Below the pieces are notes generated by a model. That model made no database searches and was not told the DNA's origin. It worked only from the letters and a program-made list of their open reading frames with translations. The translations under genes were made by a program, and so were the position numbers. Positions 21,853-37,762 of a DNA stretch of 37,762 nt are shown piece by piece. This DNA comes from Flavobacteriia bacterium (lineage in GTDB: Bacteria > Bacteroidota > Bacteroidia > Flavobacteriales_D > Crocinitomicaceae), in assembly GCA_947455255.1 (NCBI GenBank), contig CANGOA010000011.1, positions 1 to 37,762 of the forward strand. Direction: 5' to 3'. The stretch's first letter is position 1, and every line of letters begins with the position of its first letter.

Positions 21853-22941
21853 TTACGAACGATTGTCGTTTTCTAATTCATGAATTTTTTTTCTCCATTC
21901 ATTAATTTCATTATTCATCGATAAAAAACGAGAGATAATAGAGAATAAAAATAATAATAATATAATCGTTGCCGTGTTAGAAAAATACTCACCTGCAAAA
22001 ATGGATAGCAATAATAGCGTTATTGCAGTTACAACAATTACTAATGTTGCTTTTTTATGTTCAAGTTTTAATCCTATTAAAAGGTGATGTAAATGTGTTT
22101 TATCAGCTCTAAAAGGGCTGAATCCTTTTTGAATACGTTTACGATATACGCGAATTGAGTCAATTACAGGTAAAATCAAAACTCCAATCACCGTGGAAAG
22201 AGTTCTAGTAATATCTGGAGTGTTTGTAGATTCTTGGATTAACATAATTCCTGAAACTACAAGTATATAACCTAAAAATAAAGATCCAGCATCCCCCATA
22301 AAAATTTTATGCTTTTTACTTAAGTTATATTTTAAGAAACCAATTAATGCGCCAATGATGGTTAAAAACAAAGAAGCAAACAAGTATTGTTGATGAACTA
22401 ATGCGATTATAGAAAATGATGTAAATCCAATAATTGCCAAACCACCTGCTAAACCATCAATACCATCTGATAAATTAAATGCATTTACAGTTCCTGTTAT
22501 AATTATCACTGTTAAAATAAATTTGAAAATTTCAGGTATTTCATTAATTCCTAATATTCCAAACAATGATTCTATTTTAATACCTGAAAGGTATACGAAT
22601 ACAGCAACACCTAATTGAATAATGAGTTTAATAGAGGCTTTTAAGTTAACCTTGTCATCAATTATTCCCATTACAAGTAGGATAAATGATCCTATGATTA
22701 ATGGTGAAATCTGTTGGAAATCAGGCTCTACGATTTTTGAAATAGTTAATGCTATTGTAGCACATAAGAAAACCATAAAACCTCCAATCAACGGAATTGC
22801 TGTAAAGTGTGATTTGCGGTAATTTGGTTTGTCAACGAAGTTTATTTTAAAAGCAATTCGTCTAAAAAAAGGAGTTAATACCAATACTAGTATTAAGGCA
22901 ATCAAGGGAGAAATTATGAGTGTGATATAATTTTTTTCCAT
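21853..22941 (-). CDS. WecA/TagO-type undecaprenyl-phosphate sugar-1-phosphate transferase
   Basis: A 362-residue polytopic membrane enzyme of the MraY/WecA superfamily. It moves a HexNAc-1-phosphate from a UDP-sugar onto undecaprenyl phosphate, the first step of a lipid-linked glycan. Motifs seen: VDKPNYRKSH (36-45), Asp95-Asp96 in GIIDD, NAFNLSDGIDGLAGG (153-167), the catalytic-region Asp217 in FMGDAGS, and DKTHLHHLL (280-288). The C-terminus is a short charged helix (NEINEWRKKIHELENDN). It starts 2 bases after the DUF1972-type glycosyltransferase stop. The superfamily is certain, but the exact sugar is not, and it is not the housekeeping mraY by context. Confidence 0.93.
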   Translation of the reverse strand: MEKNYITLIISPLIALILVLVLTPFFRRIAFKINFVDKPNYRKSHFTAIPLIGGFMVFLCATIALTISKIVEPDFQQISPLIIGSFILLVMGIIDDKVNLKASIKLIIQLGVAVFVYLSGIKIESLFGILGINEIPEIFKFILTVIIITGTVNAFNLSDGIDGLAGGLAIIGFTSFSIIALVHQQYLFASLFLTIIGALIGFLKYNLSKKHKIFMGDAGSLFLGYILVVSGIMLIQESTNTPDITRTLSTVIGVLILPVIDSIRVYRKRIQKGFSPFRADKTHLHHLLIGLKLEHKKATLVIVVTAITLLLLSIFAGEYFSNTATIILLLFLFSIISRFLSMNNEINEWRKKIHELENDNRS

Positions 22942-22943
22942 GA

Positions 22944-24161
22944 TTATTTTTTATGGTCGTAAAAGTTTTTTTGATGTTTTAAATGGGCAATGTTCATTTC
23001 GAGTAAGGTTTTTTCGTCCAAATCTTTCGTGTTTGAATTAATATTTCCTTTTTTCTTCATATCCATTACTTCTTCAAAAAGCGCACTATATTTGATTGCA
23101 ATCGTTTTCCATGTATATCTTCGTTTTGCAATTTCATCCATTTGTAATCCTACTTCTTTTAAGGTTTCTTTACTTGTCTCTTGTACTAAATCTATTAAGT
23201 CAAATTGATTTCTAAAATATAATGCTTTTTCTTCTGTTGTTTTTCGATTGTAAGAAACATTGAACGCCATTATTGGTAATCCTAAATACATTGCTTCTAC
23301 TAAAGAAGGATTCGTTCCCCCAGCTGAATGGCCATGTATATAAATATGAGCATTTCCTCGAATTGCATCTAATTTTCGTTGGTCATAAATAGGGTCAAGC
23401 AAAATGATATTTTCATAATCTTTACATTTTTCACGAAAGAATTTTCCAAATTCACTATTATTCCAATTTCCAACCATAACTAATATGTGATCTGGTAACT
23501 CCATGAAAGCTTCTAGTACCTCATGTACATTGTTTTCAGGTTCAATACGACAAACTTTAAAAGCATAAGGTTTGCTTAAAAAAGGAAATTCAATTTTATC
23601 CTCTTCAGTTGGAACCACTTTCAACGTATGGTCAGCACCATATTCAATGATTCTACTTAATGAACCATAACGCATGGCCGTATAATCTTGAATAGATTCA
23701 TTGTCTGAAATGTCGATATGAGAATATTTAACTGCAATTTTTTCAGCCCAAAATAAATACCATTGTACTACTCGATTCCATTTGTCACGTTTCCATTCAA
23801 CACCATCGATAGAAATAATTATTTTCTTTTTGGTGAAATATTTAACAAAAGGAAGCATCCATGAACCTGCAACACCTAAAATGAGTAATACGTCAGAACG
23901 AAACACAGCATGAAAAATAGAAATTGCATCGTAAGCAATGCTTTGAAATCCATTAGCATCAAGTGGAATATATTTAAGTTTTGCTCCTTTATAAGTATTT
24001 AATCTTTTTTCCTTAGGATATTTTTTTCCAGAACAATAAACTGTAATGTCGTATTGATCAGCTAGATTATCAACTAAATGTTCAGTAAGTGTTTCAAAAC
24101 CACCATAAGTAGCAGGTACACCAACAGATCCTATAATTGCAATTTTCTTTTTACCTTTCAT
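22944..24161 (-). CDS. DUF1972-type GT4 glycosyltransferase
   Basis: A 405-residue GT-B sugar transferase. The N-terminus has the DUF1972 signature GSVGVPATYGGFETLTEHL (residues 11-29), typical of rhamnosyltransferases such as WchF that add the second sugar of a repeating unit. The donor side shows KVCRIEPENNVHEVLEAF, HIYIHGHSAGGTNPSLVEAM and LGLPIMAF. The last ~30 residues are Lys-rich and poorly conserved in appearance. It sits directly upstream of the WecA/TagO-type gene. The natural reading is that the WecA-type enzyme loads the first sugar and this one adds the next (inference). Confidence 0.9.
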   Translation of the reverse strand: MKGKKKIAIIGSVGVPATYGGFETLTEHLVDNLADQYDITVYCSGKKYPKEKRLNTYKGAKLKYIPLDANGFQSIAYDAISIFHAVFRSDVLLILGVAGSWMLPFVKYFTKKKIIISIDGVEWKRDKWNRVVQWYLFWAEKIAVKYSHIDISDNESIQDYTAMRYGSLSRIIEYGADHTLKVVPTEEDKIEFPFLSKPYAFKVCRIEPENNVHEVLEAFMELPDHILVMVGNWNNSEFGKFFREKCKDYENIILLDPIYDQRKLDAIRGNAHIYIHGHSAGGTNPSLVEAMYLGLPIMAFNVSYNRKTTEEKALYFRNQFDLIDLVQETSKETLKEVGLQMDEIAKRRYTWKTIAIKYSALFEEVMDMKKKGNINSNTKDLDEKTLLEMNIAHLKHQKNFYDHKK

Positions 24162-24345: not shown

Positions 24346-27300
24346 TTATTTAAGTATAAAGTTCTTTTTGACGCTTGGTTTATTTTCTAGAAAGATTTCT
24401 AGTATATAGCTACCTGATGACCAGCTAGAAACATTGATTGCTTTTTCTAAATTGTCTTCAGCTCTTATGCCTTCAAAAACTAATTGCCCATTTTGGTTGT
24501 ATACCTTTACAAATTTTATTATTTCATTTTCTTCTGTAGAAATATATACGAAATTATCTGTTGGATTAGGATAGACAGTGAATTTTGATTCATTTTCAAA
24601 ATCTTTATCAGAAATTCCAGCCGATTCTTCATTAAGTACTTTTTCAGGTACGTATACTTGTGTCCCTTCTGGATTTGTTACAGTTTGAATCATTTTACTT
24701 CCATTACCAATTACAAATTGATAACCTTGGTATTTAGTTCCATCTGATCCGCAATACGCATAGATATCATAAATTCCATCGGCTAAATCCGTAATTGTCA
24801 TTGATTTTGTTTCACCGATTTGATTGTTTAAAGATAAAAATGTCGGTCTATATACACTTACAAACACTCCTTTGTCGTCACGTTTACGTAATCTGTATTT
24901 ATTATTTGCCGAACCGTTTAGAACCGTAAATTTTAAAGTTTTAGGATTACTCGTCGCATCAATGTTTAAACGAATTGCAGAACAATTTTCAACAGCCTCA
25001 TTCAAATAGATTGTTTCTACTTCAGTCTCAGATATTGCTCTACTATAAACTCTTAATTCATCAACAGAAGCGTCTGCCGTTCTAGAATTTCCAATATATC
25101 CTAAAACAATGTCAACTAAGTTATTACTAAATGCATAAGCAGAACTATTGTTTAACAATTTACCATTGTGATAGATACTGTTTGTTGTTTTGTCACTTGT
25201 TAATACAATATGATTCCATTTGTTTTTCAAAGCGATTTCATTACTTCTCAAAAGTTGAGAACTCGAACCATTACCATAATTATATCTAATTGCTCCATCT
25301 TTATCAAATGCAAATTCTGCTCTTAATGTATTAGAACTATTATTAGGTATGGATAGTAATGTTGAAGCATCTTCCGCAGGATACTCATTTAATTTGTACC
25401 ATAAAGAAACTGTATATCCTTTAGCTGTGTCAATATCAATAACATCTTTGATTGTAATATTATTATACAATCCATTCAAGTGGTAAGCACCTTTTGGATC
25501 ATTGTAATTATCCATTGTTTGATCAACACAATTGATAATTGCGTTGTGGTTGTTTCCGCTTTCATCTTTTGCACTTCCTTTGAAAGGGAAATAGGCAATT
25601 AATTCATTAGTAACTAAGGTACATTTAGCTTTAGTTATTGAAAATGTTAATGATTTATAGCTCTTCGCTTCGTTAGCACAATAAACATATAAATCATATT
25701 CACCAATAGATAAGTTATTTACTTTAATTTCTTTGATTTCATTACTTATATTTCCTACTGGAGCAAAAGCAGGGGAGGTAATCGTTGTAAAAGAACCATC
25801 ATTATTTTTCTTACGAACTCTGTATAAATTGTTTGGATAACCTCCAGAAACAGTAAATAAAATTGACCCATCGTTATCCGTTTTACAAGATGCCGGAACA
25901 ATGTCAGATTTATTCAGGTTCAAGTTCAAATTTGTACATTCATATGAGATAGGTCCAGTACAAACATCTTTACCAATAGTAAAATATTTAGTATTAAACA
26001 TATTTGGATTCTCATTACAGAATGCATATAAATCGTATTCTCCAATTCCAAGCCCACCAACCGTAATTGTTTTTGTTTCGTTTTCTAAATTTCCAGAAGG
26101 AGAATATGCAGGGAAAGTTACAACTGTATAGCTCCCGTTAAAATTCTTTTTTCTTATTCTATATAAGTTATTTGATGAACCATTTGAAATTGTAAAAGTT
26201 ACCGAACCATCACTTAATCCTACACAAGTAACATTCTTTAAGCCGTTTTCTTCAATATTTACAAGAATATTCTTGCAGGAAGAAGAAGTATTACTTGCAT
26301 TTTTTATTTCAGTTACATAGATTGTATCTGTAATTGTATTTGAATTACAAGCATATTGTTTAATATAGAAATCGCTATAGTAACCAGCTGTTAAAGAAGA
26401 TAAAAAAGCATTTCCACTATTGTCACTATTTATTTCTCTCGTTTCCACTTCGCTATTTCTCTTATAGAAAATTGAATAGGTATTTGTTTTAGCAAGTCCT
26501 TTAATTTCCAAGGTACTGTTACAAGTCAAGCAATTTAATGGTGTAGATAGCTTTCCAAGTAAAATAACTGGTACTAAAGGATTAACTAGACTCACCTTGT
26601 CTGTAATACTATTTGATTGACATTCCTTATACGTAACATAGAAGTTTTCGTAATCTCCAGCTTTCAAATTGTTTAATGCCATGGATCCAAAAAACGAAGA
26701 ACTTACTTTGTTTACTGAGTTTGTTCCATTGTAGGTATAGTATAAGTTGTACTCTGTATTACCAGATAAACCTGAGAATTCAATAGAACCGTCACTTAAG
26801 CCACATCCAGAAGGCGAAGTAAAACTACCTTTAGAAAGAGTAGGGGCAGAAGGTTCAACCAAATTGATTGTGTTAGTCAATGTATTTGAATTACAACCTT
26901 TTGTTTCAACATATAAACTTGAGTAGTTTCCAGCTGCTAAATTTGATATTTTAATTTCTGCATTATCATTTGACGTAAACAATGTTTTTACTGATGTGCT
27001 ATTTTTAATGTAATTAACATTATATGCTGTGTTTTTTTGAGCAACATTTAATGTAATACTTCCATCGTTTGCAATGCATGTGGTAGGATTAATTGATGAC
27101 ATCAAGTTGACAGTTGAAGCAATAGGATCAGTTAAAATTATTTTAGCTGTATTAATGTTCGATAAACAAGCATTTACACTTAATGTAATATTTGCATATT
27201 CTCCAGAAGTCAAATTAGATAAAACTAAATCTTTACCAACAGAAGTTACATTTTTAGTAGTTAAATCTCCATTTTTTGTATAACTAATAATGTGCTCCGC

Positions 27301-29550
27301 GTTTTCATTTGACACTTGTAATTTAATATTACCATCATTTCCGTTACAAACTGAAGGTGAAGTTGAATTAACAAATGTAAATGTAGGTTCAACAGGAGTA
27401 GAAATGGAAATGTTATCTGTTAATGTATTCGATATGCAACCATTAATAGCTACATATATGTTTGTATAGACTCCAGCTTCAAGGTTTGGGATGCTTAAAA
27501 TCCCAATGTTCGAAGAGGTTGCAATTATTGAGCTATTTACATTGTTTTTAGAATATTTACAAGAATAGGTTGTATTATTAGCTAAACCATTTAATTGGAT
27601 CATACCGTCTTTTAAAGAACAATTAGAAGTGTTCAAAGTATTATCCAGTGCAATCGTTAAATTAATTGGGTGTTTAATTGTAATTACATCGTTAATTACA
27701 TTGGAATTACAAGCACTTGTTGTTATATAAAATGCAGAATAATCAGCAATGTCTAAGTTAATCAACTTAAGAATTCCTGTATTCGATGATGTAAGATCTA
27801 TTTTATTGTTTATATCTCCTTTTTTGTAGTTTAACGTATATACTTTATTTGCGTTTAAACCATTTATTTCAATAGAAGCATCTTTTGAAATACAAGTTGA
27901 AAGGTTTGTAACATTTCCCTTTGAAATAGTTGGAACAACAGGATTTGATAATACTATTTTGTCAGTAATCAAATTAGATAAACAACCATTCAAGTTTACA
28001 TATATGTTAGAATATTCAGCAGCTTCTAAATTTGTTAAAGATAAATTCCCACTGGTATTTGAAGTTGCAGATGCACTAGAGGTTACACCATTTTTACTAT
28101 AAGTTATACCAAATATAGTGCTTTTTGCTAACCCATTTAGTTGAATAGAACCATCGTATGAAACACAACTGCTAGGAGAAGTATATAAACCTTTCGTAAT
28201 AACAGGAGAAGCGGGATTAACAAGTGTAATTTTATCGGTAATTGTGTTTGATACACATCCATTTAAAGTCGCATAGAAGTTTGAATATTCAGCAGCGACT
28301 AATCCTGTAATTGTACCAACTCCTGTTGTACTGGAGGTGATGTTTGTAATGGTAGTTACACCATTTTTGGTATAGGTTATTGAGTAAGCAGTTGAGTTAT
28401 TTAAACCATTAATTTTAATACTTCCATCTTTACTAGAGCATGTTGTTGGAGAGGTAAAAGTTCCTTTAGAAATCGCTTTTAATGATGGGACAGTTAAGGT
28501 GATTTTATCTGAAATAGGATTTGTATTACAACCATTCAATGAACCAAAAAACTCTGTGTATTCACCAGCTCCTAATCCAGAAAGTGTTATTACACCTGTT
28601 GAAGAAGAGGTTGTACTAATTGTGTTTTTTGATCCGTTTTTTGTATAGTTAAAAGTATAAACAGTTGAATTGTTAAAGTTATTGATTATTATTTTACCGT
28701 CATTGCTAATACATGTTGCAGGAGAAGTAAAGGTTCCTTTTGTAATTGTTTTTAATGCAGGATTAGTTAGAATAGTAGATGTTGTAATTTTGTTTGAAAC
28801 AACAGTTCCAAGTGTTACATAAATATCTGTGTATTCTCCAAATGATAGGTTTGCAATTTTTATTGCTCCATTCACATCAGATACGATTGTTGTAGAAATT
28901 ATAGCTCCGTTTTTAGTATAAGTTAATTTATACGAAGTAGTTTTCAATAAACCGGTTAGGTTAATATATCCATCTGTTCCGTTACAGCTAGATGGGGATA
29001 AAAAAGTTCCTTTTGTAATAGCAGGTCTTGTATTAAATGAACAACTAGATGTATTCGTGTATTTTTCTTCAACTCCGTCACATTTTGCAGAAACTGTTGT
29101 GTTAATAGAACGAGTACATTCAGGAGAAATTACTTCTCCATCTTTATCGTATAAATTTGATTTGTACGTTGTTTCAAGTACATACTTATCATTCCCTGGT
29201 AAATCTGGTAATGTTCCAAAAGTAACTGTGTTAACACCATTCACTGTTTTACAAGTTCCAGTATATGTTTTAGTAGATTTAGTACTTTTTATTACACTTG
29301 AAACATGTGTATAACCATCTTCTGTTTCTACACTTGTTTGAAGATTAGTTAACGCTTTAGGGTCTGTACAACTAATGTTTGTCGTCACTTTAACTTCCGT
29401 TTCAGGAGTTACCGAAGTTTTAGAACAGGTAGTTTCTGTTTTTACTTTCTTTTGACCGAAGGTAAGTGTACTAACAAATAAAACACCAATAAAAATTGAT
29501 TTTTTTAAAAGTTTTTTCGTTTGAACAGTTTTTTGTAAAAATTTAATCAT
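24346..29550 (-). CDS. Giant repeat/LamG surface protein with T9SS type A sorting domain
   Basis: A 1734-residue secreted protein. A signal peptide ends near FGQ (residue 33) and an unassigned Cys-containing domain runs to about 173. Ten ~91-residue repeats occupy about 177-1086, each with TKGxxxSPxxC, DGSIxxxGL, Y-x-KNG, L-x-AGEYSN and CxSNxITDKI. Then come two ~110-residue YRxRKK modules (about 1093-1310), a LamG/concanavalin-like domain (about 1312-1520, LIAYFPFKGSAKDESGN and SVDELRVYSRAIS) and a third YRxRKK module. The C-terminus from 1657 is the type A sorting domain (FTVYPNPTDNFVYI ... SGSYILEIF ... KKNFILK). Such proteins leave by T9SS and become anchored at the surface. The gene has its own terminator and a 248-base leader, so it is likely a single transcription unit. 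Ligand unknown. Confidence 0.95.
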   Translation of the reverse strand: MIKFLQKTVQTKKLLKKSIFIGVLFVSTLTFGQKKVKTETTCSKTSVTPETEVKVTTNISCTDPKALTNLQTSVETEDGYTHVSSVIKSTKSTKTYTGTCKTVNGVNTVTFGTLPDLPGNDKYVLETTYKSNLYDKDGEVISPECTRSINTTVSAKCDGVEEKYTNTSSCSFNTRPAITKGTFLSPSSCNGTDGYINLTGLLKTTSYKLTYTKNGAIISTTIVSDVNGAIKIANLSFGEYTDIYVTLGTVVSNKITTSTILTNPALKTITKGTFTSPATCISNDGKIIINNFNNSTVYTFNYTKNGSKNTISTTSSSTGVITLSGLGAGEYTEFFGSLNGCNTNPISDKITLTVPSLKAISKGTFTSPTTCSSKDGSIKINGLNNSTAYSITYTKNGVTTITNITSSTTGVGTITGLVAAEYSNFYATLNGCVSNTITDKITLVNPASPVITKGLYTSPSSCVSYDGSIQLNGLAKSTIFGITYSKNGVTSSASATSNTSGNLSLTNLEAAEYSNIYVNLNGCLSNLITDKIVLSNPVVPTISKGNVTNLSTCISKDASIEINGLNANKVYTLNYKKGDINNKIDLTSSNTGILKLINLDIADYSAFYITTSACNSNVINDVITIKHPINLTIALDNTLNTSNCSLKDGMIQLNGLANNTTYSCKYSKNNVNSSIIATSSNIGILSIPNLEAGVYTNIYVAINGCISNTLTDNISISTPVEPTFTFVNSTSPSVCNGNDGNIKLQVSNENAEHIISYTKNGDLTTKNVTSVGKDLVLSNLTSGEYANITLSVNACLSNINTAKIILTDPIASTVNLMSSINPTTCIANDGSITLNVAQKNTAYNVNYIKNSTSVKTLFTSNDNAEIKISNLAAGNYSSLYVETKGCNSNTLTNTINLVEPSAPTLSKGSFTSPSGCGLSDGSIEFSGLSGNTEYNLYYTYNGTNSVNKVSSSFFGSMALNNLKAGDYENFYVTYKECQSNSITDKVSLVNPLVPVILLGKLSTPLNCLTCNSTLEIKGLAKTNTYSIFYKRNSEVETREINSDNSGNAFLSSLTAGYYSDFYIKQYACNSNTITDTIYVTEIKNASNTSSSCKNILVNIEENGLKNVTCVGLSDGSVTFTISNGSSNNLYRIRKKNFNGSYTVVTFPAYSPSGNLENETKTITVGGLGIGEYDLYAFCNENPNMFNTKYFTIGKDVCTGPISYECTNLNLNLNKSDIVPASCKTDNDGSILFTVSGGYPNNLYRVRKKNNDGSFTTITSPAFAPVGNISNEIKEIKVNNLSIGEYDLYVYCANEAKSYKSLTFSITKAKCTLVTNELIAYFPFKGSAKDESGNNHNAIINCVDQTMDNYNDPKGAYHLNGLYNNITIKDVIDIDTAKGYTVSLWYKLNEYPAEDASTLLSIPNNSSNTLRAEFAFDKDGAIRYNYGNGSSSQLLRSNEIALKNKWNHIVLTSDKTTNSIYHNGKLLNNSSAYAFSNNLVDIVLGYIGNSRTADASVDELRVYSRAISETEVETIYLNEAVENCSAIRLNIDATSNPKTLKFTVLNGSANNKYRLRKRDDKGVFVSVYRPTFLSLNNQIGETKSMTITDLADGIYDIYAYCGSDGTKYQGYQFVIGNGSKMIQTVTNPEGTQVYVPEKVLNEESAGISDKDFENESKFTVYPNPTDNFVYISTEENEIIKFVKVYNQNGQLVFEGIRAEDNLEKAINVSSWSSGSYILEIFLENKPSVKKNFILK

Positions 29551-29798: not shown

Positions 29799-30869
29799 TT
29801 ATGATATTATTTCGAACGATTTTTCACTAAAAACGTTTTCTTTAAAATGTTCTACTTTTCTTAGTGCATTTTCATGTAATTTTTGATATAGTTGTGTGTT
29901 TTCTATAATTTTTTTGAAAGTTGTATCTAATTTTTGTAAGTCACGACTATCAACTTGAAAGCCATTTTCGCCTTCTTCAATAAGTTCTGTAATTCCTCCA
30001 ACTGGTGGTACGATTGCAGGTAAACCATACGCCATACCTTCAATGATTGTTAAGCCAAAAGTTTCAATCCATCCATCTGGTCGAGATAAATTTACGATTA
30101 AATCAGCCCATAAATAATGCGGATGAAGATTCGTTTGAACGGGTAATATCTCTATATTAATAGGTAGTCTAACTTCCGTAAAATATTCATTGATTTCATT
30201 TTGAACTGCATTAACGATTACTCGAAAATTATTGGAAGGGTTTGCGATTGCGAGTTGAACAAATTCATTTACACCTTTGTAATCTTTTAAAGAACAAACA
30301 AGTAGCGTATTTTTCAGATTCGTTTTCGAAGTTCTGTTTTGTTTTGCAATTTCAAAAAAATCATCTTCCAAAGCATTGTATAATAAATGAGATTTTGCGT
30401 TAGGAATAGGTTCTTCTTTTGCTAAATAATCGGAAACGTAGATAACATCATTTGCTGACCACTTAACGATACCAAAAAGAAATTTCTTTAAGATTGGTGG
30501 CTTTACAGTTGTTTCGTGAATATGGTAGATTACTCTACATCCTTTCATCTTACCTAAAAAAGCAGCACCAAATGGGAGTACCGTATTAATGTATATAATA
30601 TCCTCTTTTTTGACTTTAAAAAACATTTTCCAAAAAACCATTTTTTGACTCCATGTTAAGTTTATTAGTCGAACGTATGGATTTTGAGCAAATTTATAGG
30701 TGTAAAAATGATATTTAACACCTGTAATATTGGATAGAAATCCATCGCGACCTTTGCATGTAACCATATTGACATCCAAACCTTTTTTAACCCAACCTTT
30801 TAGTAGTTGACTCAAAACTTTTGGACTACCACTGTAATCGTTTAGTAGGTGAAAAGCAAAAATTCTCAT
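29799..30869 (-). CDS. GT4-like glycosyltransferase (last gene of the polysaccharide operon)
   Basis: A 356-residue GT-B sugar transferase. The opening FAFHLLNDYSGSPKVLSQ is the N-terminal Rossmann start, and YHIHETTVKPP lies near residue 116. The donor-binding half has LVCSLKDYKGVNEF, the NLSRPDGWIETFGLTIIEGMAYG segment with the Glu pair, and PPVGGITELIEEGENGFQV. It begins 1 base after the previous glycosyltransferase stop. Sugar and acceptor are unknown. Between its stop and the cargo gene start (29551-29798) there is no gene: that stretch is very AT-rich and contains an AT-only inverted repeat (29769-29780 with 29787-29800) that could help end transcription. Confidence 0.88.
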   Translation of the reverse strand: MRIFAFHLLNDYSGSPKVLSQLLKGWVKKGLDVNMVTCKGRDGFLSNITGVKYHFYTYKFAQNPYVRLINLTWSQKMVFWKMFFKVKKEDIIYINTVLPFGAAFLGKMKGCRVIYHIHETTVKPPILKKFLFGIVKWSANDVIYVSDYLAKEEPIPNAKSHLLYNALEDDFFEIAKQNRTSKTNLKNTLLVCSLKDYKGVNEFVQLAIANPSNNFRVIVNAVQNEINEYFTEVRLPINIEILPVQTNLHPHYLWADLIVNLSRPDGWIETFGLTIIEGMAYGLPAIVPPVGGITELIEEGENGFQVDSRDLQKLDTTFKKIIENTQLYQKLHENALRKVEHFKENVFSEKSFEIIS

Positions 30870-30870
30870 G

Positions 30871-32088
30871 CTAAAGTTTTTGATAAATTTCGTTTAATTG
30901 TTCACCACGTCTGTCCCAATGAAAATAGTTTTCGAAGCGTTTTCTAGCTTCTTTGCTCATTTTGGCGTGTAATTCTTTATCCTCGTAGAGTTGTTTAATC
31001 GCGTTACTCAATTCGTTTACAGTATCCTCGTGATTTTTCATCGGAACAGCAATACCACATTTTTCAGTAATGAATTCACCTGGACCGCAGTTGTCTAAAC
31101 ATACCACAGGTAATCCAAAGGATAAAGCTTCAGCAACAACCATACCTGCGCCTTCGTGGGAAGGGAAAAGAAAAACGGAAGCATCTTTGTACATATCGAG
31201 TAAATCCTTACGGTCTATCCATTCAATGAAAGATACGTTTTGTTCAATATTTTCTTGTTTACATAATTGTTTGTACAACCCTAATTCAGGTCCACTTCCT
31301 ACAATTTTTAGAAATATATTACTCGTGTCCTCTACCGATTTTAAGAATTTTGAAAAGGCTAAAATGGTCAAATCAAAACCTTTTAAAGGTACCAATCTCC
31401 CTGCAGATATAAGTGAAAATGAATCTTTAGTTCTGGCTAAATCGTAGCCAAAATCTTCGGTTGCTACAGATGGAATAACGGAATTTCTTCCAGGTTTTAA
31501 AGGCAAATGATCTGCAACTGATTTATTCATACAGACTACAAAGCTAGCTTTATGAGCAGTACGATTTAGGGCTAGTGATGCATTCCAGAAGAATAATTTA
31601 ATAGCCCAAGTCAGACGATCTTTAATGAAATAGGATTTTTTAAATAGTTTAAAATATTGCTTCGGAATTAAAGGATGATGTCCAACAGGTCCCCAAATGA
31701 AAGGCTTTCCTAGTTTCCATAAATAACTAGGTGTCCAATCGTTGTGAAAATTCACATTGTGAACAATGTCGTATTTTATGGATTGTTTTTTTATAAAACC
31801 AACAATCCCTTTTTGCCACATCCAGTAATAGAGCATTGCACCACGACCTCCTTTTTTCCAGAAACGCATCCAGTAGGGTAGGTCAAAGTAAAGAAATGTT
31901 ATGTTTTGATAAATTTCAGAAGGGTTTTCCTTCATGTATTTCTCTATATGAGGCTGATTATTTTCACGCGTAATTGCAATAACTTTGTTGAAACGTGCAA
32001 TTTGACATACAAAATTCCACCCCATACCATCTTCTGAGCCTTTGTATGGATTAACCGCATACGTTGTAGCTAAAATTGATTTACTCAT
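30871..32088 (-). CDS. GT4-like glycosyltransferase
   Basis: A 405-residue GT-B sugar transferase. The N-terminal half shows TYAVNPYKGSEDGMGWNF, a start seen in one subgroup of polysaccharide glycosyltransferases, and PFIWGPVGHHPLIPKQYF near 136-153. The donor half has SLISAGRLVPLKGFDLTI, LFPSHEGAGMVVAEALSFG with the two Glu of the E-x7-E pattern, and CGPGEFITEKCG. Its start overlaps the acyltransferase stop end by 8 bases, implying translational coupling. No signal peptide or membrane segment, so it works on the inner face of the membrane. Acceptor unknown. Confidence 0.9.
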   Translation of the reverse strand: MSKSILATTYAVNPYKGSEDGMGWNFVCQIARFNKVIAITRENNQPHIEKYMKENPSEIYQNITFLYFDLPYWMRFWKKGGRGAMLYYWMWQKGIVGFIKKQSIKYDIVHNVNFHNDWTPSYLWKLGKPFIWGPVGHHPLIPKQYFKLFKKSYFIKDRLTWAIKLFFWNASLALNRTAHKASFVVCMNKSVADHLPLKPGRNSVIPSVATEDFGYDLARTKDSFSLISAGRLVPLKGFDLTILAFSKFLKSVEDTSNIFLKIVGSGPELGLYKQLCKQENIEQNVSFIEWIDRKDLLDMYKDASVFLFPSHEGAGMVVAEALSFGLPVVCLDNCGPGEFITEKCGIAVPMKNHEDTVNELSNAIKQLYEDKELHAKMSKEARKRFENYFHWDRRGEQLNEIYQKL

Positions 32089-32773
32089 TTCTACTTTTTA
32101 ACAGTTTCGCAGGAACTCCGCCAATGATAGAATTTGCTGGAAAAGATTTATTTACAACTGCACCTGCAGCTATGATCGAACCATCACCTATTTCAACCCC
32201 ATCTAAGATTGTAACTTTACTTCCGATCCAACAGTTATTTCCAATTTTAATTCCTTTACGAGTTACACCTTGGTGACGAATGGATACATGAATATCATCG
32301 TATACATGATTTTCAGGGTGACAACTTAAATATTGTCCAACGATACACTCGTCACCAATTTCTAATCCACCTGCTCCTCCAAGGTATGCGAATTCCCCAA
32401 TTCCCACATTATCTCCAATTTTAATATAATCTCCTACTTGATTTAATGAGGTAGAGACGATGATTCGACTAAAGTCTCCAATTCCAACATTATTACCGAA
32501 GGTCACTCCGTTTTTGCTTAATGCACTTATATAAACATGATTTCCAAGTTTTAAAAACTTACCAAAGTGTATTTTAGGTGCATTGAAAAACCGAACGCTT
32601 CTTCCCAATATAGCAGCTTTAGGATTTTTTCCGTGTAGGATTAATTTCAACCCTCGAAGCATACTCCAAGCTTGATTCCATAGAAATTGAAACAAAGCAT
32701 GATCATTTAATCCTTCATCAAATTTGAAGTTAGGATTTCGTAATTGGATTATTTTTTCAAAAAGTTTCTTCAT
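32081..32773 (-). CDS. Hexapeptide-repeat (LbH) acyltransferase, WcaF/maltose O-acetyltransferase type
   Basis: A 230-residue left-handed beta-helix enzyme. Hexapeptide turns run from about 52 to 215, broken by the loop SCHPENHVYDDIHV (150-163) that supplies the catalytic-type His152/His156. The typical closing IGSKVTILDGVEIGDGSI and AAGAVVNKSFPANSIIGGVPAKLL is present. The N-terminal ~45 residues form a helical extension. Members transfer an acetyl or other acyl group from CoA to a sugar, so the likely job is decorating the surface polysaccharide. It abuts the 802-residue gene without a gap and overlaps the next gene by 8 bases. Confidence 0.92.
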   Translation of the reverse strand: MKKLFEKIIQLRNPNFKFDEGLNDHALFQFLWNQAWSMLRGLKLILHGKNPKAAILGRSVRFFNAPKIHFGKFLKLGNHVYISALSKNGVTFGNNVGIGDFSRIIVSTSLNQVGDYIKIGDNVGIGEFAYLGGAGGLEIGDECIVGQYLSCHPENHVYDDIHVSIRHQGVTRKGIKIGNNCWIGSKVTILDGVEIGDGSIIAAGAVVNKSFPANSIIGGVPAKLLKSRNE

Positions 32774-35182
32774 CTATTTCAATTTTGTATTGATGTTTTT
32801 CATAATGAAGTCTACCGTCGTATCCAAATCGATGTTATTTATTAAATGGTAGTTTTGTTTCTTTTTACGTGCCTCGAATTTGTTGAAAAGGTTAGAGTAT
32901 TTCTCCGTTAATTCTGTAATAGTTTCTGCTGAAAGTTCTTGCTTACGTTTAAGAATAACTTCAGGGTCAGCATAAAGAAAGAAATTTAGGTCAGGGGTAA
33001 ATACGAAGTTATATCCAAATTTCACAATTCCTTCGTTAATATTAATGTTACTACGTTTTGCATCATTAATAAAATCGTAGTAGTATCTGTCATATAATAC
33101 AATGATACCTCGGTATTTGTATTTAAAGTTAATATAGAATTGACCTACAAAATAGTCGAAATAGTAATACATAAATCGAACTAAAGAGGAGATGGAGCTT
33201 TTATTATTTCCTTGTCGAGGTAAACGATTGGCTGCATCTTTTTCAGCTTGTTCTTTTCCTTTTGTAATAGCACTCAAAATAGGAAGTAGAGAAGGTCTAT
33301 GTCTAATCACTACAACTTTTCGACGTAATCTTTTTTCGATTTCGTGTTTGATGTTTTCTATAATAGTGGATTTTCCAGCACCATCTACTCCGCTAAAAGT
33401 GATGATAATTCCTTTGTTTGACATAAGTTGTTTGAATGTATCTCGGTAATAATTTATTTTATTAAGGGTAAAAGATAGGAATTTGTTTTCTTTCCATTGA
33501 TTTAATTCACGGATTAATTTTTCGCGTTTTAATTTATCATACAAGAAATATTCTTTGAGAACCTTTTCTAATTTAGAGTTTTCTGGATTTAGAAATTCAG
33601 TATAATGGTAATATTTTTCTGGAACGATGGATTCATTTAAACCATAAAACATGCCTATGTAATGAGCTAGGTCATTTCCATTCATAATATTAACGCCGAA
33701 TTGGTTTTTTTCTTTTCGTTCTAAAACCTTATTTGCATTTAGGAAAACTAATTCTTTTCGTTTAAATTTCCAGATGAAATCTAAACTTAATAATGATCCA
33801 TTTCTTAATACCAAATGTGTTGAATCCATAAAAGATTTATGGATGGTATTGTTTTTCAAAACAAGAAAATGAGTAGATAAAAATGCTTGAATTTCTTTTC
33901 TACATGATTTTTTTATACAAAAATCGATGTCGGAATATTCGCTTAATAGTTCTGGTTCACCGTCATGAAATTTCACAGTTGTATAGTTCTTCTCATTTAA
34001 GTAATCGAATAAATCAATAATCATCAGTTGACGATCATTTATCCCATCACTCAATACATCTGAGATTGCCTCATTCCAAGTGTTTATTAACCAGTGAATC
34101 TGTACATGCCAATCTACTTGCTTCGAATAAATTTCCAGATAGTGAACCGTATTTGCTAATAAGTAATATTTTAAATATTTAGTAACCGATTTTTCACGTC
34201 CGTCTGTCCATAAAGCAATTACCTCTGGTGTAATGATCGCGTTAATTTCAGAACGTATTACTTTCCAAGGTTTGCGATCGACTAAGATTCCTTTTTGGAT
34301 GATAAAATGAAAAGCGTCGAATCCAATTGGAGCATTATAATTTGCTAATTCCCAGTCGTATAAAGCGATTTTATCACCATCTTTATACATGTTCCAGGGG
34401 GTGAAATCACCGTGACAGAACCCAAGGTGAATTTCCTCCTTTTGTGATTGTTCTCTTAATAAATGTAGTTTTTTAAGTATTCCACGAGGAATACGAGGAT
34501 CATTTACTTCTTTGATTTTTGTAAAATTCTCATCTATTTCAAGATTTTTTGAGAAAATTTCCCAATCTACAACTTTTTTCTCTAAGTCGTTAATTTCTTT
34601 AAGTGAATTTATATGAATGTTTTCAAGTGTTTTATAGCGTTGAGAAAGTGCAGATACATCTTGAATTTCAAGGAAATTTTCAGAAGATTTTTTAATTTTT
34701 GGGATATAAAAAGAGTTACTGTTTAAAGTTTCCACCCTACGTATTGTATTCTCTTCGTTGTGAATTATTTTTTCTGATTGTATTGTGGTGGCAACTTTGT
34801 AAAAACTGTTACCAGATTCATTTTCTTCAAAAACAAGCATTTTGTTATTTGGACCAACAGTTCCTGTAAAAATTGCCCAATTATTTTTTGTTAAATCAAT
34901 AATGTCTGGTTTATCTGAAATTGGTTTGATAAATAGCGTTTGTTTTTTGAAAGCTAATCCTTGTAATTTAAACGTGAAAATGAAATTAATGATTTTTGCA
35001 AATAGTGAGGAACGAAGGTTGTTCACCATGTAAAACTTCAGGAAAAGCGGAGTTTTTGCTTTTTTGGAGCAAATCCAACGGGGAGTACCGTCTGGGTTAT
35101 TTAAAACTACAAAAGTCACTTTGTATTTATTATCCTGTTGTTCGTCAATCGAATAATTCAGATGATTTAATATTTTTTTCAT
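32774..35182 (-). CDS. Three-part fusion: phosphotransferase-like, nucleotidyltransferase-like and thymidylate-kinase-like domains
   Basis: An 802-residue protein with three recognisable parts. Residues about 100-385 form an aminoglycoside-phosphotransferase/choline-kinase-like fold: Lys129 and Glu144 fit the ATP-site pair, FCHGDFTPWN (255-264) holds the catalytic Asp259 and Asn264, and YDWE (275-278) the metal Asp276. Residues about 395-480 carry G408 and the DID motif (418-420), as in minimal nucleotidyltransferase domains. Residues about 590-800 are a thymidylate-kinase-like P-loop domain with GVDGAGKST (598-606), LYDRYYYD (697-703) and a DPEVILKRK segment. It starts with an ATGA overlap (4 bases) with the polymerase gene and abuts the acyltransferase gene. 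Since it is embedded in a polysaccharide operon, phosphorylation or nucleotidylation of a sugar or lipid carrier is plausible. Substrates are unknown; residues 1-99 match nothing I recognise. Confidence 0.85.
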   Translation of the reverse strand: MKKILNHLNYSIDEQQDNKYKVTFVVLNNPDGTPRWICSKKAKTPLFLKFYMVNNLRSSLFAKIINFIFTFKLQGLAFKKQTLFIKPISDKPDIIDLTKNNWAIFTGTVGPNNKMLVFEENESGNSFYKVATTIQSEKIIHNEENTIRRVETLNSNSFYIPKIKKSSENFLEIQDVSALSQRYKTLENIHINSLKEINDLEKKVVDWEIFSKNLEIDENFTKIKEVNDPRIPRGILKKLHLLREQSQKEEIHLGFCHGDFTPWNMYKDGDKIALYDWELANYNAPIGFDAFHFIIQKGILVDRKPWKVIRSEINAIITPEVIALWTDGREKSVTKYLKYYLLANTVHYLEIYSKQVDWHVQIHWLINTWNEAISDVLSDGINDRQLMIIDLFDYLNEKNYTTVKFHDGEPELLSEYSDIDFCIKKSCRKEIQAFLSTHFLVLKNNTIHKSFMDSTHLVLRNGSLLSLDFIWKFKRKELVFLNANKVLERKEKNQFGVNIMNGNDLAHYIGMFYGLNESIVPEKYYHYTEFLNPENSKLEKVLKEYFLYDKLKREKLIRELNQWKENKFLSFTLNKINYYRDTFKQLMSNKGIIITFSGVDGAGKSTIIENIKHEIEKRLRRKVVVIRHRPSLLPILSAITKGKEQAEKDAANRLPRQGNNKSSISSLVRFMYYYFDYFVGQFYINFKYKYRGIIVLYDRYYYDFINDAKRSNININEGIVKFGYNFVFTPDLNFFLYADPEVILKRKQELSAETITELTEKYSNLFNKFEARKKKQNYHLINNIDLDTTVDFIMKNINTKLK

Positions 35183-36465
35183 ATATCTTGAATTAGATCA
35201 GGTCTTCTTTTCTTTAATTGTATTTTTTGTGTTGCAGTGATAATATCCGATTTTTCAAAAGAAATGTAGAAGATTATTAATTGATAAAATAAAATTCCAT
35301 AATTCGATTCACCAAAGATACCAAACTCTGTTACTGAGTTTATAATCAAAGGTATAAGTAGGCAGTAAAGCATTAGTTTTACATCTTTCTTTTCTCGAGA
35401 AATCCCTCTAAAGAGAAAACTCAATTGGAAAGCAACAATGGTTATACCAACAAAACCAAGATTAATCAATACCTGCATAAAAGTGTTGTGTGTCATCTTA
35501 CCTGCATAGGTATTTGCACTTTGGAAAGCATCCGTATAATCGATACGCATAAATCCAAAGCCTAGTAAAGGTTCACGAGGAAGTCCTTCGTTGATTAATG
35601 CCGTCCAGAATGGCAAACGACCGGTCATGGATAGTACCTCTTCCATACGACTACTATCTCCATCTTTAAAGATGATTTTATTTACAGCGATAGGCATAAC
35701 AACCATCATAACAACCACTACCGCGATTTTAATACGTGCATCGTTTAATTGTTTGAGGTGGAAACCAATGATTAAGAATGCTCCAATGAGTGAAGAGCGT
35801 GATCCTGTTTCCAATAAACAGTAAAATAAAATGAGTAATTTAAAGATGGTCCAGCCGATATAATGTTTTCTGTAAAATTCAAATAAAAGTCCAGCAACTC
35901 CAAGTCCTGCCAACATTCCAAGTTCATTTGGATTCATGAAATATCCACCTAAACGCGCTTCTTCACCACCGTTAGTTAATCGGTAGAAAGAGTCTGGATC
36001 TATCCACATTCCGATAATAAAAACGAGAATAAGTACAAAAACTGTATTACCAACCAAATTAAAAAAACGAATATTATGACCTGGAAAAAATTCATCGAGG
36101 ATGTATATACTTTTGATGAAAAAATAGCAGAAGATGGTTGTTTGGGCTGTCATGAACCATTGGAGTGCGCTATAACCAACATCTGTGCTCCATAAAAAGG
36201 ATAGAAACCCCAAACCTAAATAAGAAGCGTAAAGTAAGATAGATAAATGGTTTTTCCATTTCAGATTATCTACTGCGCCATAATTAATGATTTTATCGTA
36301 AATGGCATAGCTAGCAAAGAGTACGCCTATACGTCCAACTAATTTTATCGCACGTGTAATGGCAACATTCTCACTCCAAGTAAAAAAACAAGCAGTCATC
36401 AGAAGTAAAATTAAGAACAACTGAAAATTGATTTTTTTTAAAAATTTAGAGTGATCTACTGTCAT
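35179..36465 (-). CDS. O-antigen ligase/polymerase-like (Wzy/WaaL) membrane protein
   Basis: A 428-residue protein with about 10-11 membrane segments and one long outside loop. The pattern LLETGSRSSLIGAFLIIGF (about 226-244), preceded by MNPNELGMLAGLG and followed by a loop with GRLPFWTALINEG, LLGFGFMRIDY and MTHNTFMQVLINLGF, is the Wzy_C family signature. Members either polymerise lipid-linked repeat units or ligate the finished chain; sequence alone does not decide which. It lies 3 bases after the glycosyltransferase stop and shares an ATGA overlap with the kinase fusion. Confidence 0.88.
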   Translation of the reverse strand: MTVDHSKFLKKINFQLFLILLLMTACFFTWSENVAITRAIKLVGRIGVLFASYAIYDKIINYGAVDNLKWKNHLSILLYASYLGLGFLSFLWSTDVGYSALQWFMTAQTTIFCYFFIKSIYILDEFFPGHNIRFFNLVGNTVFVLILVFIIGMWIDPDSFYRLTNGGEEARLGGYFMNPNELGMLAGLGVAGLLFEFYRKHYIGWTIFKLLILFYCLLETGSRSSLIGAFLIIGFHLKQLNDARIKIAVVVVMMVVMPIAVNKIIFKDGDSSRMEEVLSMTGRLPFWTALINEGLPREPLLGFGFMRIDYTDAFQSANTYAGKMTHNTFMQVLINLGFVGITIVAFQLSFLFRGISREKKDVKLMLYCLLIPLIINSVTEFGIFGESNYGILFYQLIIFYISFEKSDIITATQKIQLKKRRPDLIQDI

Positions 36466-36468
36466 AGT

Positions 36469-37575
36469 CTAGCAATATAGATCATCTAACTTAGTTACTA
36501 ACTTATCCCAATCAAAAGCTTCTTTAACTAACAATTTTGCATTGTTAGCTAACGTTTCCATCTCCGATGTTTTCCAGGTTTTATATAAACTATCAAAAGC
36601 CTTTTCCAGTTCAATACTACTTTCATCATTGATGGCGATTCCAGCGTTGAATTTGGTTATATAACTAGCAATGTTTGTCGCGTGAGTAACAACACTTGGT
36701 ATTCCCATAGAACAGGCTTCTAATACAGCGGTAGGTATACCTTCATTGCGAGATGGATGTGTGAAAATGGTCATTTGACTAATCAATTCATCTTTTTCTA
36801 TTCCAAATTTACTACCGAAGAATTTCACATTAGCTTCAAGATTATTTGTTTTCACCAATTCTTCTAATGTTGATTTTTCTTTACTATCTCCAACAATCCA
36901 AAGTTCTGAAGTTGGTGCTTTTAGTATAAAATTTTTATATGCTTCGATTAATAAATCAAGTCCTTTCGTATAGATATCTAATCTTCCAACAAAGCCAATA
37001 ATAAATGTTTCCTTGTTTATTTTTTTTACAGGTAAATCACTTGGGATTTCAAATCCATAAGGAAGTAGAAAAGACTTGGAATTAGGATAGAGTTCATTTA
37101 AACCAGTAACTTCACTTTCTCCTAGTGAATGAATTCTTTTTGCATTTTTTAAAAGTGTCTTTTCAAATAGCTGGAAATATAACTTCTTCGTTATACCACT
37201 TCGTTGCATTGCGACCGTGTTGTAAGCACCATGAGGTGTAAGTACAAATGAAATGTTATTCTTTGCTAAAAAAAATGATAGCGAAGCATAAACAGGTACC
37301 CATCCACCATGAAGATGAATGACAGCTGATTTTTTATGTTCAATCAAAGCTTTTTTTAGTTTTTTATCTATTTTAAAAGGGTTTTTATGGGCTTGAAAAA
37401 GGACAGTTTTGAAATTGCGTTCACCATAATTGTGGATTAAGTCTTTTGTGATTCCCCAAACAGCAACATTTTTACCAGCATTTTGTTGACGAGTAGCCAT
37501 TTGATAAACGACTTTATTCACCCCATTCATACGATCAGGATTTGCTTTACCCAGGATTAAATGAATTATTTCCAT
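36469..37575 (-). CDS. GT4-like glycosyltransferase
   Basis: A GT-B sugar transferase of 368 residues from the ATG chosen at 37575. Its opening MEIIHLILGKANPDRMNGV is a standard family start, whereas the ATG at 37611 would add 12 uncharacteristic residues and overlap the upstream gene by 46 bases instead of 10. Numbered from the longer form, HLHGGWVPVYASL is at 99-111, TPHGAYN at 124-130, FVGRLDIYTKGLDLL at about 208, and HPSRNEGIPTAVLEACSMG at about 287 with the Glu pair. It is followed 3 bases later by the polymerase/ligase gene. Sugar and acceptor unknown. Confidence 0.9.
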   Translation of the reverse strand: MEIIHLILGKANPDRMNGVNKVVYQMATRQQNAGKNVAVWGITKDLIHNYGERNFKTVLFQAHKNPFKIDKKLKKALIEHKKSAVIHLHGGWVPVYASLSFFLAKNNISFVLTPHGAYNTVAMQRSGITKKLYFQLFEKTLLKNAKRIHSLGESEVTGLNELYPNSKSFLLPYGFEIPSDLPVKKINKETFIIGFVGRLDIYTKGLDLLIEAYKNFILKAPTSELWIVGDSKEKSTLEELVKTNNLEANVKFFGSKFGIEKDELISQMTIFTHPSRNEGIPTAVLEACSMGIPSVVTHATNIASYITKFNAGIAINDESSIELEKAFDSLYKTWKTSEMETLANNAKLLVKEAFDWDKLVTKLDDLYC

Positions 37576-37762
37576 AGCACAAATTTGTTTTTTATGAGAA
37601 TGAACTGCCAATAAACTAAAGTAATAATTTGAGAAGCGATTAAGCCAATAATTGCACCATTCACATGAAATTCTTTAAGTAGAAATTGAAAAGTCAGTAA
37701 ACTAAAAATTAAAGAGAAAACATAACCTGCAAAAAAACGACTATTTAAAACGAGCATACGAA
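37566..37762 (-). CDS. C-terminus of a polytopic membrane protein, probably a polysaccharide flippase (partial)
   Basis: The frame is open through the window end, so only the last ~65 residues are visible. They form two membrane helices (FFAGYVFSLIFSLLTFQFLL and IIGLIASQIITLVYWQFILI) joined by a short loop with NGAIIGL, ending KNKFVLWK. Position at the head of a polysaccharide operon and the helix pair fit the C-terminal end of a Wzx/MATE-like exporter. That is an inference from context, not a motif match. The downstream glycosyltransferase starts 10 bases inside its end. Confidence 0.55.
   Translation of the reverse strand, partial: RMLVLNSRFFAGYVFSLIFSLLTFQFLLKEFHVNGAIIGLIASQIITLVYWQFILIKNKFVLWK

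Follow-up and report, generated by a model that had tools for sequence, protein, structure and literature searches.

The gene analyzed here encodes a single chain that joins an APH/choline-kinase-like kinase (APH), a putative nucleotidyltransferase (NT) and a thymidylate-kinase-like P-loop kinase (TK), and it may be a multifunctional enzyme of the Wzx/Wzy-dependent EPS pathway, in which APH would phosphorylate and NT-TK would elaborate the phosphate; this reading is given a little under an even chance. Two cooperating units are proposed, the APH kinase unit and a unit B consisting of NT and the TMPK-like kinase. APH would phosphorylate a sugar or a lipid-linked repeat unit, and unit B would act on the phosphate made by APH, extending or capping it before export: the P-loop kinase may extend it to a diphosphate and/or NT may transfer a nucleotidyl or glycosyl(-phosphate) group onto it. 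The decorated unit would then be flipped by Wzx and polymerized by Wzy. The activity of each part, the identity of the substrate and the order of the steps are what we infer.

The gene lies in a polysaccharide locus within the window, the whole stretch of 37,762 nucleotides that was analyzed, with the following features.

21853..22941, minus strand: WecA-type sugar-phosphate transferase, presumed initiating enzyme (PF00953, 8.3e-35)
22944..24161, minus strand: DUF1972/GT4 glycosyltransferase (Pfam)
29799..30869, minus strand: GT4 glycosyltransferase (Pfam)
30871..32088, minus strand: GT4 glycosyltransferase, best NCBIfam match EpsH (below its cut-off)
32081..32773, minus strand: hexapeptide acyl/acetyltransferase (PF00132, 1.9e-14)
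32774..35182, minus strand: fusion gene, 802 amino acids (N-terminal part, APH-like kinase, nucleotidyltransferase, TMPK-like kinase)
32777..33421, minus strand: TMPK-like P-loop kinase TK, residues 588-802 (Pfam; Foldseek TMPK 7.3e-7)
33053..33091, minus strand: TK family signature DRYYYDFINDAKR, residues 698-710, replacing DR...AYQG of canonical Tmk (alignment)
33365..33391, minus strand: Walker A motif GVDGAGKST, residues 598-606
33443..34033, minus strand: putative pol-beta-type nucleotidyltransferase NT, residues 384-580 (AF2 pLDDT 94.6; Foldseek nucleotidyltransferases)
33923..33931, minus strand: predicted metal-binding DID motif of NT, residues 418-420 (third acid D468)
34043..34882, minus strand: APH/choline-kinase-like kinase, residues 101-380 (Pfam; Foldseek)
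34391..34414, minus strand: catalytic loop HGDFTPWN, residues 257-264
34883..35182, minus strand: conserved N-terminal part, residues 1-100, with the motif NPDG..RW...P..FLKFY and a hydrophobic helix at 56-70 (invariant residues, predicted model)
35179..36465, minus strand: Wzy/O-antigen-ligase-type polymerase (PF04932, 2.8e-15)
36469..37611, minus strand: GT4 glycosyltransferase (Pfam)

The open reading frame begins with ATG and carries HGDFTPWN, YDWE (275-278), SDID (417-420) and GVDGAGKST in one chain, the catalytic residues being kept in all three parts, as the sequence-only reading had held for a single gene; its division into three stands for APH, NT and TK and is corrected in that residues 1-100 form a further conserved part and that the strand is minus. 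Besides the fusion of the window, 32 full-length fusions were found in Bacteroidota, and the complete plasmid of Hymenobacter swuensis carries one more besides these 32. The ratio dN/dS was ≤0.30 in each part for five close pairs, with dS often >1 and saturated in three comparisons, and on these values purifying selection acts on all parts of the fusion. Because of the 32 other full-length homologues and these ratios, the fusion is taken as real and beyond chance. The window comes from a draft genome (212 contigs, 77% complete), in which separate genes might have been joined through an assembly or annotation error; however, full-length fusions also occur in the complete chromosome CP012155, in the complete plasmid and in isolates, among them Flavobacterium limicola and Fulvivirga kasyanovii, and an assembly fusion, extremely improbable, was rejected. 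The residue and locus counts below leave out the window itself, the duplicate genes L001, L016 and L012, and L004, which shares a contig with L026; the residue counts retain some duplicate genes, the distinct rows numbering 87 (APH), 73 (NT) and 88 (TK).

The N-terminal part, in which R35, W36 and Y51 are invariant (31 rows), forms a helix and strands in the predicted structure and has profile matches in relatives; from its predicted hydrophobic helix we infer a possible membrane association of the fusion. In the adjoining kinase, the motifs of the APH superfamily (the HxDxxxxN loop, DxD/E and the Lys-Glu pair) are present: D259, N264, D276 and E278 occur in 89/89 rows, H257 in 88 of the 89, and K129 together with E143 in all 87 rows that cover them. 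Foldseek matched this part to LicA (2.8e-5) and APH(9)-Ia (2.2e-5), and the earlier proposal of an APH/choline-kinase-like part with intact HGD-x4-N and D-x-E motifs is thereby upheld. The Pfam APH profile (PF01636) scored the window protein at 22.9 bits (8.5e-5), just below the curated cut-off of 23.2; among relatives, the score was above the cut-off in L085, L115 and two plasmid partners and below it in L011 and L036, and a Pfam APH match was not found in L017.

The Foldseek list for NT bears almost exclusively the titles of nucleotidyltransferases, with a best E value of only 2.3e-3; no match was obtained at ≤1e-3, and the fold support is modest. The acids D418, D420 and D468 are all present in 71/73 rows, a count that covers the close group because the NT profile misses most of the distant NT-TK proteins. 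K404 is a further conserved position (69 K and 4 R in 73 rows). In the pol-beta superfamily, an hG[GS] motif precedes the catalytic acids; this motif was not found here, and G408 is not among the conserved NT columns. The minimal nucleotidyltransferase-like part claimed from the sequence alone thus retains its DID motif, joined by the Foldseek matches, but loses G408. Pfam scans of the window protein and of relatives gave no nucleotidyltransferase match, nor anything specific for the middle part. Assignment to NTP_transf_5 (PF14907) was rejected, with no Pfam match and an hhalign probability of 11% (E 0.0027); the DID region aligns with GDID of that family in hhalign, and a kinship at the superfamily level may exist. 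LicD (PF04991) gave no Pfam match in the proteins scanned, and LicD sequences for a profile comparison with NT were obtained from 0/61 genomes at 1e-15.

TK matched the Pfam Thymidylate_kin profile (PF02223) at 26.5 bits in the window protein (6.1e-6), just below the curated cut-off of 27, and scored 28.3 in the genome search; in profile searches of the PDB, thymidylate kinases ranked first and the other matches were P-loop proteins. K604 and D698/R699 each occur in all 89 covering rows (92 rows in total). The D..D..R motif was found in 31/32 TK rows, two of which are one gene, with H for the second D in L044, and the full signature including RK.E in 85 of the 89 covering rows, the exceptions being L044, L118 and two rows of the G171 gene. 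This signature also occurs beyond Bacteroidota. Both canonical Tmk rows have AYQG and, because D..D..R/RK.E stands in its place, TK is by its sequence no thymidylate kinase proper. Of the thymidylate-kinase-like part first described, the fold, P-loop and DR motif were confirmed, whereas S..AYQG was not found.

The stop codon of the Wzy-like gene overlaps the start of the fusion as ATGA, which bears out the suggested translational coupling, and the gene for the hexapeptide transferase starts at the base next to the end of the fusion, with no gap. The surface-polysaccharide operon setting is borne out both by these neighbors and by a polysaccharide-cluster gene within three genes in 77 of 82 loci, although not in all, as the question whether the parts are always next to polysaccharide genes had asked; here, neighbor classes are BLAST clusters of which the representatives, not each gene, were Pfam-checked. 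Wzy lies directly upstream of the fusion in 21/32 cases, L008 being scored as a miss although Pfam finds Wzy_C there, and a hexapeptide transferase directly follows the TK gene in 44/56. A typical locus comprises Wza, Wzc, Wzx, GT4, Wzy, the fusion, the hexapeptide transferase, GT4 enzymes and a WecA-like enzyme. The full Wzx/Wzy EPS set (Wzx, Wzy, Wza, Wzc, glycosyltransferases and initiating transferase) is present in relatives; in the window, the contig ends before the expected Wzx/Wzc/Wza. At the stand-alone APH loci L070, L071 and L073, no polysaccharide-cluster gene was found within three genes.

NT-TK plus APH is accessory in distribution, the family occurring in at least 8 of the 296 genomes that were sampled from the phylum (the genome survey tallies are lower bounds). 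A survey of the co-occurrence of the parts, as proposed earlier, found APH and NT-TK recurring as a fusion, as neighboring genes in the order APH then NT-TK (many cases in Saprospiraceae), as distant genes and as a reverse fusion. Among 12 genomes with APH alone in the stretch retrieved around the locus, 11 have an NT-TK gene outside that stretch, directly followed by a hexapeptide transferase gene in 10/11 of these regions; the remaining region (L130) has GT4 genes beyond NT-TK. APH, NT and TK are three separate genes within one EPS cluster in L063. The reverse fusion NT-TK-APH (L117, 948 amino acids) groups with split genes, apart from the Bacteroidota fusions, in a TK tree that was built without L133 and the partial TK sequences and in which two genes each appear twice. 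Next to NT-TK in L118 lies a fusion of a Wzx-type flippase with a protein-kinase/APH-like kinase; this kinase gave no match to the APH profile of this analysis. Four of the 38 rows classed as APH-only are truncated or broken fusions (L009, L042, L047 and L078); of these, L009 has intact APH motifs and has lost the NT acids and TK. L062 has APH and TK without NT at a contig edge. No APH profile match was found near TK in G183, G630 and G657, three of at least 14 matched genomes; in G183, TK occurs without NT, with no recognized polysaccharide gene in the region examined. In plasmid records of Hymenobacter, Agrobacterium and Leisingera, the fusion or NT-TK is annotated as 'hypothetical protein'.

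Given that APH, NT and TK recur together with their catalytic residues intact, the favored reading is phosphoryl/nucleotidyl chemistry in successive steps on a sugar or a lipid-linked intermediate, as had been suggested from the order of the domains; however, that order need not be the order of the steps, because one genome has the reverse fusion and others have separate genes. The proposed role in EPS synthesis draws on the fusions, the catalytic residues, dN/dS, the split and reverse forms, the EPS locus, the PsmK/PsmN precedent discussed below and the flippase-kinase fusion of L118. Counted against it are the modest fold support for NT, G408, the cases of G183/G630/G657, L070/L071/L073, L009 and L062, the doubt concerning PsmN, the profile miss in L118 and the merely predicted nature of the helix behind the membrane association.

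It is rather unlikely that the set instead serves donor synthesis or salvage, with APH phosphorylating a free sugar or alditol, NT adding a nucleotide and TK supplying or adding phosphates to give an unusual activated donor for the neighboring GT4 enzymes; salvage making a new donor was also the alternative named in the sequence-only reading. The APH-family sugar kinases NahK and AmgK do feed nucleotidyltransferases, and the recurrent locus core has transferases, Wza/Wzc/Wzx/Wzy and the WecA-type enzyme, with no genes dedicated to NDP-sugars; the neighbor analysis recognized one NDP-sugar gene cluster (c11, of dehydratase type, with L023 as its only Pfam-checked case), at 8 loci, two of which are the same region. 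However, NT is pol-beta-like and not of the NDP-sugar pyrophosphorylase fold, the known salvage pairs to our knowledge need no second kinase, and NDP-sugar genes do occur in some clusters that contain the pair, such as rfbABCD in Leisingera. There is a small chance that the two kinases make polyprenol monophosphate and then diphosphate, supplying or recycling the lipid carrier, to which the predicted helix at 56-70, the adjoining Wzy, the WecA-type gene and the flippase-kinase fusion in L118 would be suited; this would leave no role for NT with its conserved acids, and cells usually provide undecaprenyl phosphate as a housekeeping function, at odds with a family of such sparse occurrence.

Still less probable is a regulator, in which the kinases would phosphorylate export proteins (Wzy, Wzc) and NT would nucleotidylate a partner and so control chain length or output. 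The kinase fold is shared with protein kinases, and a histidine kinase with a response regulator precedes the locus in L026, as does a sigma-54 activator in L023; however, the TMPK-like fold is associated with small phosphorylated acceptors, and the usual place of the gene is within the biosynthetic block, not among regulators. Nucleotide salvage, with TK as a genuine thymidylate kinase or other NMP kinase for DNA precursors, is very unlikely: the Pfam and Foldseek matches to thymidylate kinases and the lack of another PF02223 match at 1e-5 in 7/9 genomes speak for it, whereas the replacement of AYQG of the two canonical Tmk rows by D..D..R, the accessory distribution and the EPS context speak against it, and a salvage thymidylate kinase was rejected on the signature and distribution. 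A defense system was also rejected, PADLOC giving two weak P-loop matches (5e-4 and 1.4e-3), as was a phage gene, with no match among phage records.

From its sequences, NT-TK plus APH looks like an undescribed enzyme system; no description of a kinase-NTase-kinase protein was found in the accessible portions of the open-licence PMC literature, including PMC12419801 and PMC9266682. It is possible, if doubtful, that NT-TK and APH form an undescribed, phylum-crossing pathway of three activities by which EPS would gain a new phosphorus linkage (a diphosphate, or a nucleotidyl- or glycosyl-phosphate on a lipid-linked sugar), with TK representing a new kinase family that acts on a glycan phosphate and not on a nucleotide, and with at least two independent fusions in opposite orders. 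EPS loci are, in our judgement, annotated chiefly via their glycosyltransferases, their phosphorus chemistry being less mapped, and a kinase-NTase-kinase set that recurs with its active sites intact may point to a modification or donor that has been overlooked. The set could serve as a marker gene for locating producing strains and, if TK acts on sugar phosphates, signature-bearing genes named after thymidylate kinase would be misnamed.

Compared with known systems, APH shares its fold, K129-E143, HGDxxxxN and DxE with the PF01636 superfamily (LicA, APH(9)-Ia and methylthioribose kinase) but has the conserved N-terminal part of ∼100 amino acids with the NPDG..RW motif, falls just below the Pfam cut-off in the window and is joined to NT-TK. 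NT resembles the pol-beta nucleotidyltransferases (NTP_transf_5, LinB, ANT(6) and the CCA-adding enzyme) in its Foldseek fold and three conserved acids, whereas it lacks a Pfam match to such enzymes and a conserved G408. TK resembles bacterial Tmk (PF02223) in the P-loop with the acidic GVDG residue, the DR motif and the overall fold; however, it has DRY..D...D..R plus RK.E where Tmk has DR[FY]..S..AYQG, and its genes are mostly in EPS loci, G183 and G171 lying outside a recognized EPS context. PsmK is an HPr-kinase-type kinase, and we know of no TMPK-like part in the PsmK/PsmN system. According to the available portions of PMC9266682, PsmK and the nucleotidyltransferase homolog PsmN of the lasso peptide pseudomycoidin act in turn on one phosphate, as is proposed here, whereas their substrate is a peptide; PsmN may there be a true nucleotidyltransferase, the hexose being added by an enzyme of the host. 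Finally, the loci share Wza, Wzc, Wzx, GT4 enzymes, Wzy, a hexapeptide transferase and a WecA-type enzyme with Wzx/Wzy-dependent EPS loci, whereas the core here includes the kinase-NTase-kinase gene.

The fusion lies on C11, a contig of a draft genome (3.04 Mb, 77% complete), and its start overlaps the stop of the Wzy-like gene in the tetranucleotide ATGA.

35182..32774, minus strand, fusion gene, open reading frame of 802 amino acids

Pfam matched the fusion at residues 597-780 (Thymidylate_kin, 6.1e-6) and 242-285 (APH, 8.5e-5), both slightly below the curated cut-offs, and gave no specific match to the middle part; in the NCBIfam scan no model reached its cut-off, the top one being dTMP kinase (31.1 versus 83.25 bits). 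An AlphaFold2 model of the fusion (31 homologues) had a pLDDT of 87.4 and a pTM of 0.82, and the PDB matches listed by Foldseek included thymidylate kinases (top 7.3e-7) together with several matches to the first part: LicA (2.8e-5), the spectinomycin kinase APH(9)-Ia (2.2e-5), macrolide kinases and methylthioribose kinase. Modelled by itself, the middle part reached a pLDDT of 94.6; nearly all of its best 50 Foldseek matches were nucleotidyltransferase-type by title, such as poly(A) polymerases, TUTases, LinB, ANT(6) and a CCA-adding enzyme, with a best E value of only 2.3e-3, and 4huz was the single clear non-nucleotidyltransferase among those listed. These models and matches bear out the three parts named in the sequence-only reading, namely a kinase resembling APH and choline kinases (APH), a nucleotidyltransferase (NT) and a thymidylate-kinase-like P-loop part (TK). 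The list was incomplete, as it overlooked residues 1-100, an additional part with invariant R35, W36 and Y51 and a hydrophobic helix at 56-70. The folds of the parts are already known. The APH/NT/TK set and the TMPK-like subfamily appear to be undescribed; no Pfam, NCBIfam or PADLOC model among those scanned covers the set, and no description of it was found in the open-licence literature, such absence being no proof.

On its motifs, the TK part is apparently a family of its own, to be named TMPK-like and not thymidylate kinase. A DR motif followed by D..D..R occurs in 31 of 32 TK rows and a later RK.E in all 32, whereas canonical Tmk (two rows) has DS..AYQG and no RK.E. Of the 89 rows overall that cover the signature, 85 have it in full, the deviating genes being those of loci L044 and L118 (one position) and of genome G171 (two rows, three positions). 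The P-loop acid, which in thymidylate kinases faces the sugar hydroxyl, is retained. Apart from the fusion, seven of nine genomes contained no PF02223 match at 1e-5, and neither did a Bacteroides control, so many Bacteroidota may have a divergent Tmk or a replacement for it.

At ≤1e-5 the fusion protein was matched in 15 of 395 genomes of the phylum, of which ten were near relatives or the window itself and the others weak. In a scan of GTDB genome contigs, 71 loci were found. Besides that of the window, 32 full-length fusions were found in flavobacterial, Cytophagales, Saprospiraceae, Chitinophagales and other Bacteroidota records, including isolates and one complete chromosome, and a further fusion lies on a complete Hymenobacter plasmid. 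The exopolysaccharide (EPS) locus concerned (L151, NZ_CP007144.1) is carried by a 299-kb H. swuensis plasmid typed as mobilizable. APH residues D259, N264 and D276 are present in 89/89 rows, the three NT acids in 71/73 (the exceptions being L044 and a decayed copy, L009) and TK residues K604, D698 and R699 in 89/92, these being the rows that cover them. In five close pairs dN/dS was ≤0.30 for each part, TK having the lowest values or, where saturated, undefined ones; the values are rough because dS often exceeded 1. In L009 (genome G012) two NT acids are altered, the P-loop is degenerate and TK is lost, with APH motifs intact; only a remnant of its hexapeptide transferase gene survives.

The usual order in relatives is regulators, response regulator, Wza, Wzc/Wzz, Wzx, GT4, Wzy and fusion, followed by hexapeptide transferase, GT4, GT4, (DUF1972 GT4) and a WecA-type enzyme. 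The window covers this locus from GT4-Wzy on, the contig ending at the expected place of Wzx, and between the glycosyltransferase genes of its EPS operon lies an adhesin gene.

24346-29550, minus strand, secreted adhesin-like protein of 1734 amino acids with a laminin-G-like domain and a T9SS tail (SprB-repeat match below cut-off)

Giant unannotated ORFs also occur within or beside the cluster elsewhere, for example in L038, L056, L065, L067 and L079. Wzy is immediately upstream of 21 of the 32 fusions (two are at contig ends and nine follow a different gene), and a hexapeptide transferase gene is immediately downstream of 44 of 56 TK genes. A polysaccharide-cluster gene was found within three genes in 77/82 loci, the misses being L008, L014, L070, L071 and L073. 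Nine genomes contained 29 Wzy_C genes (one to five each), one of which adjoins the fusion or family gene in eight; from genome lengths, chance adjacency is estimated at well under 1% per case.

The co-occurrence survey proposed in the sequence-only reading revealed APH and NT-TK in fused, neighbouring, distant and reverse-fused forms. Many loci, mostly of Saprospiraceae, have two genes, APH (~450-490 aa) then NT-TK (~430-540 aa). Twelve loci have a stand-alone APH only within the stretch covered; an NT-TK gene is present outside it in 11 of these genomes (the exception being that of L076), immediately upstream of a hexapeptide transferase gene in ten of the 11, and in L074 and L080 apparently on the same contig as APH. 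In one EPS cluster, that of L063 (from a MAG with the title Hyphomicrobiales), three separate genes encode APH, TK and NT. A broad TK profile matched at least eight of 296 genomes of the window's phylum, its own counted, and at least six of 398 of the phylum of L063; in those 14 genomes APH was fused in five, a neighbour in six and neither in three. Among these three, the TK of G183 is without NT and has no recognised polysaccharide gene nearby, that of G630 has a flippase-kinase fusion alongside and that of G657 has ATP-grasp and flippase genes nearby. At L118:9960-12389 (minus strand), an 809-aa ORF combining a Wzx-type flippase (46-440) with a protein-kinase/APH-like kinase bearing HGDLTLDN immediately adjoins the NT-TK gene. 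In EPS clusters on Agrobacterium and Leisingera plasmids, genes annotated 'phosphotransferase' or 'hypothetical protein' match the APH and TK profiles; the NT profile matches the Agrobacterium protein only. Genome G443 (L117) encodes the reversed order NT-TK-APH in one 948-aa chain, which groups in the TK tree with split genes of G466 (100/95) and G431 (100/99). Given its starred branches, this tree requires a minimum of two transitions between fused and split forms, a result to be taken with caution because long branches meet in it. The TK genes of L062 and L063 (MAGs titled Arcobacter and Hyphomicrobiales) pair at 100/99 within an otherwise Bacteroidota group, reflecting either transfer or mis-binning.

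Judging from the sequences, the fusion is best, if tentatively, read as two units of one pathway, a kinase and an NT-TK unit acting on its phosphate. The APH kinase would phosphorylate a sugar or a lipid-linked repeat unit, whose phosphate NT-TK would extend or cap ahead of export. L009, which keeps its APH motifs but has lost NT acids and TK, is consistent with two units, although it is a single example and could simply have decayed. The recurrent core without dedicated NDP-sugar genes would suit synthesis of a donor, an unlikely reading, and modification equally; a role as a polyprenol kinase is improbable, and one in regulation slightly more so. For the preferred reading, kinase then NT-TK, a parallel is provided by PsmK/PsmN, in which, according to PMC9266682, a kinase and an NTase homologue act in turn on one phosphate, as is proposed for the fusion, or in which PsmN is alternatively, as the authors allow there, a nucleotidyltransferase aided by a host enzyme.
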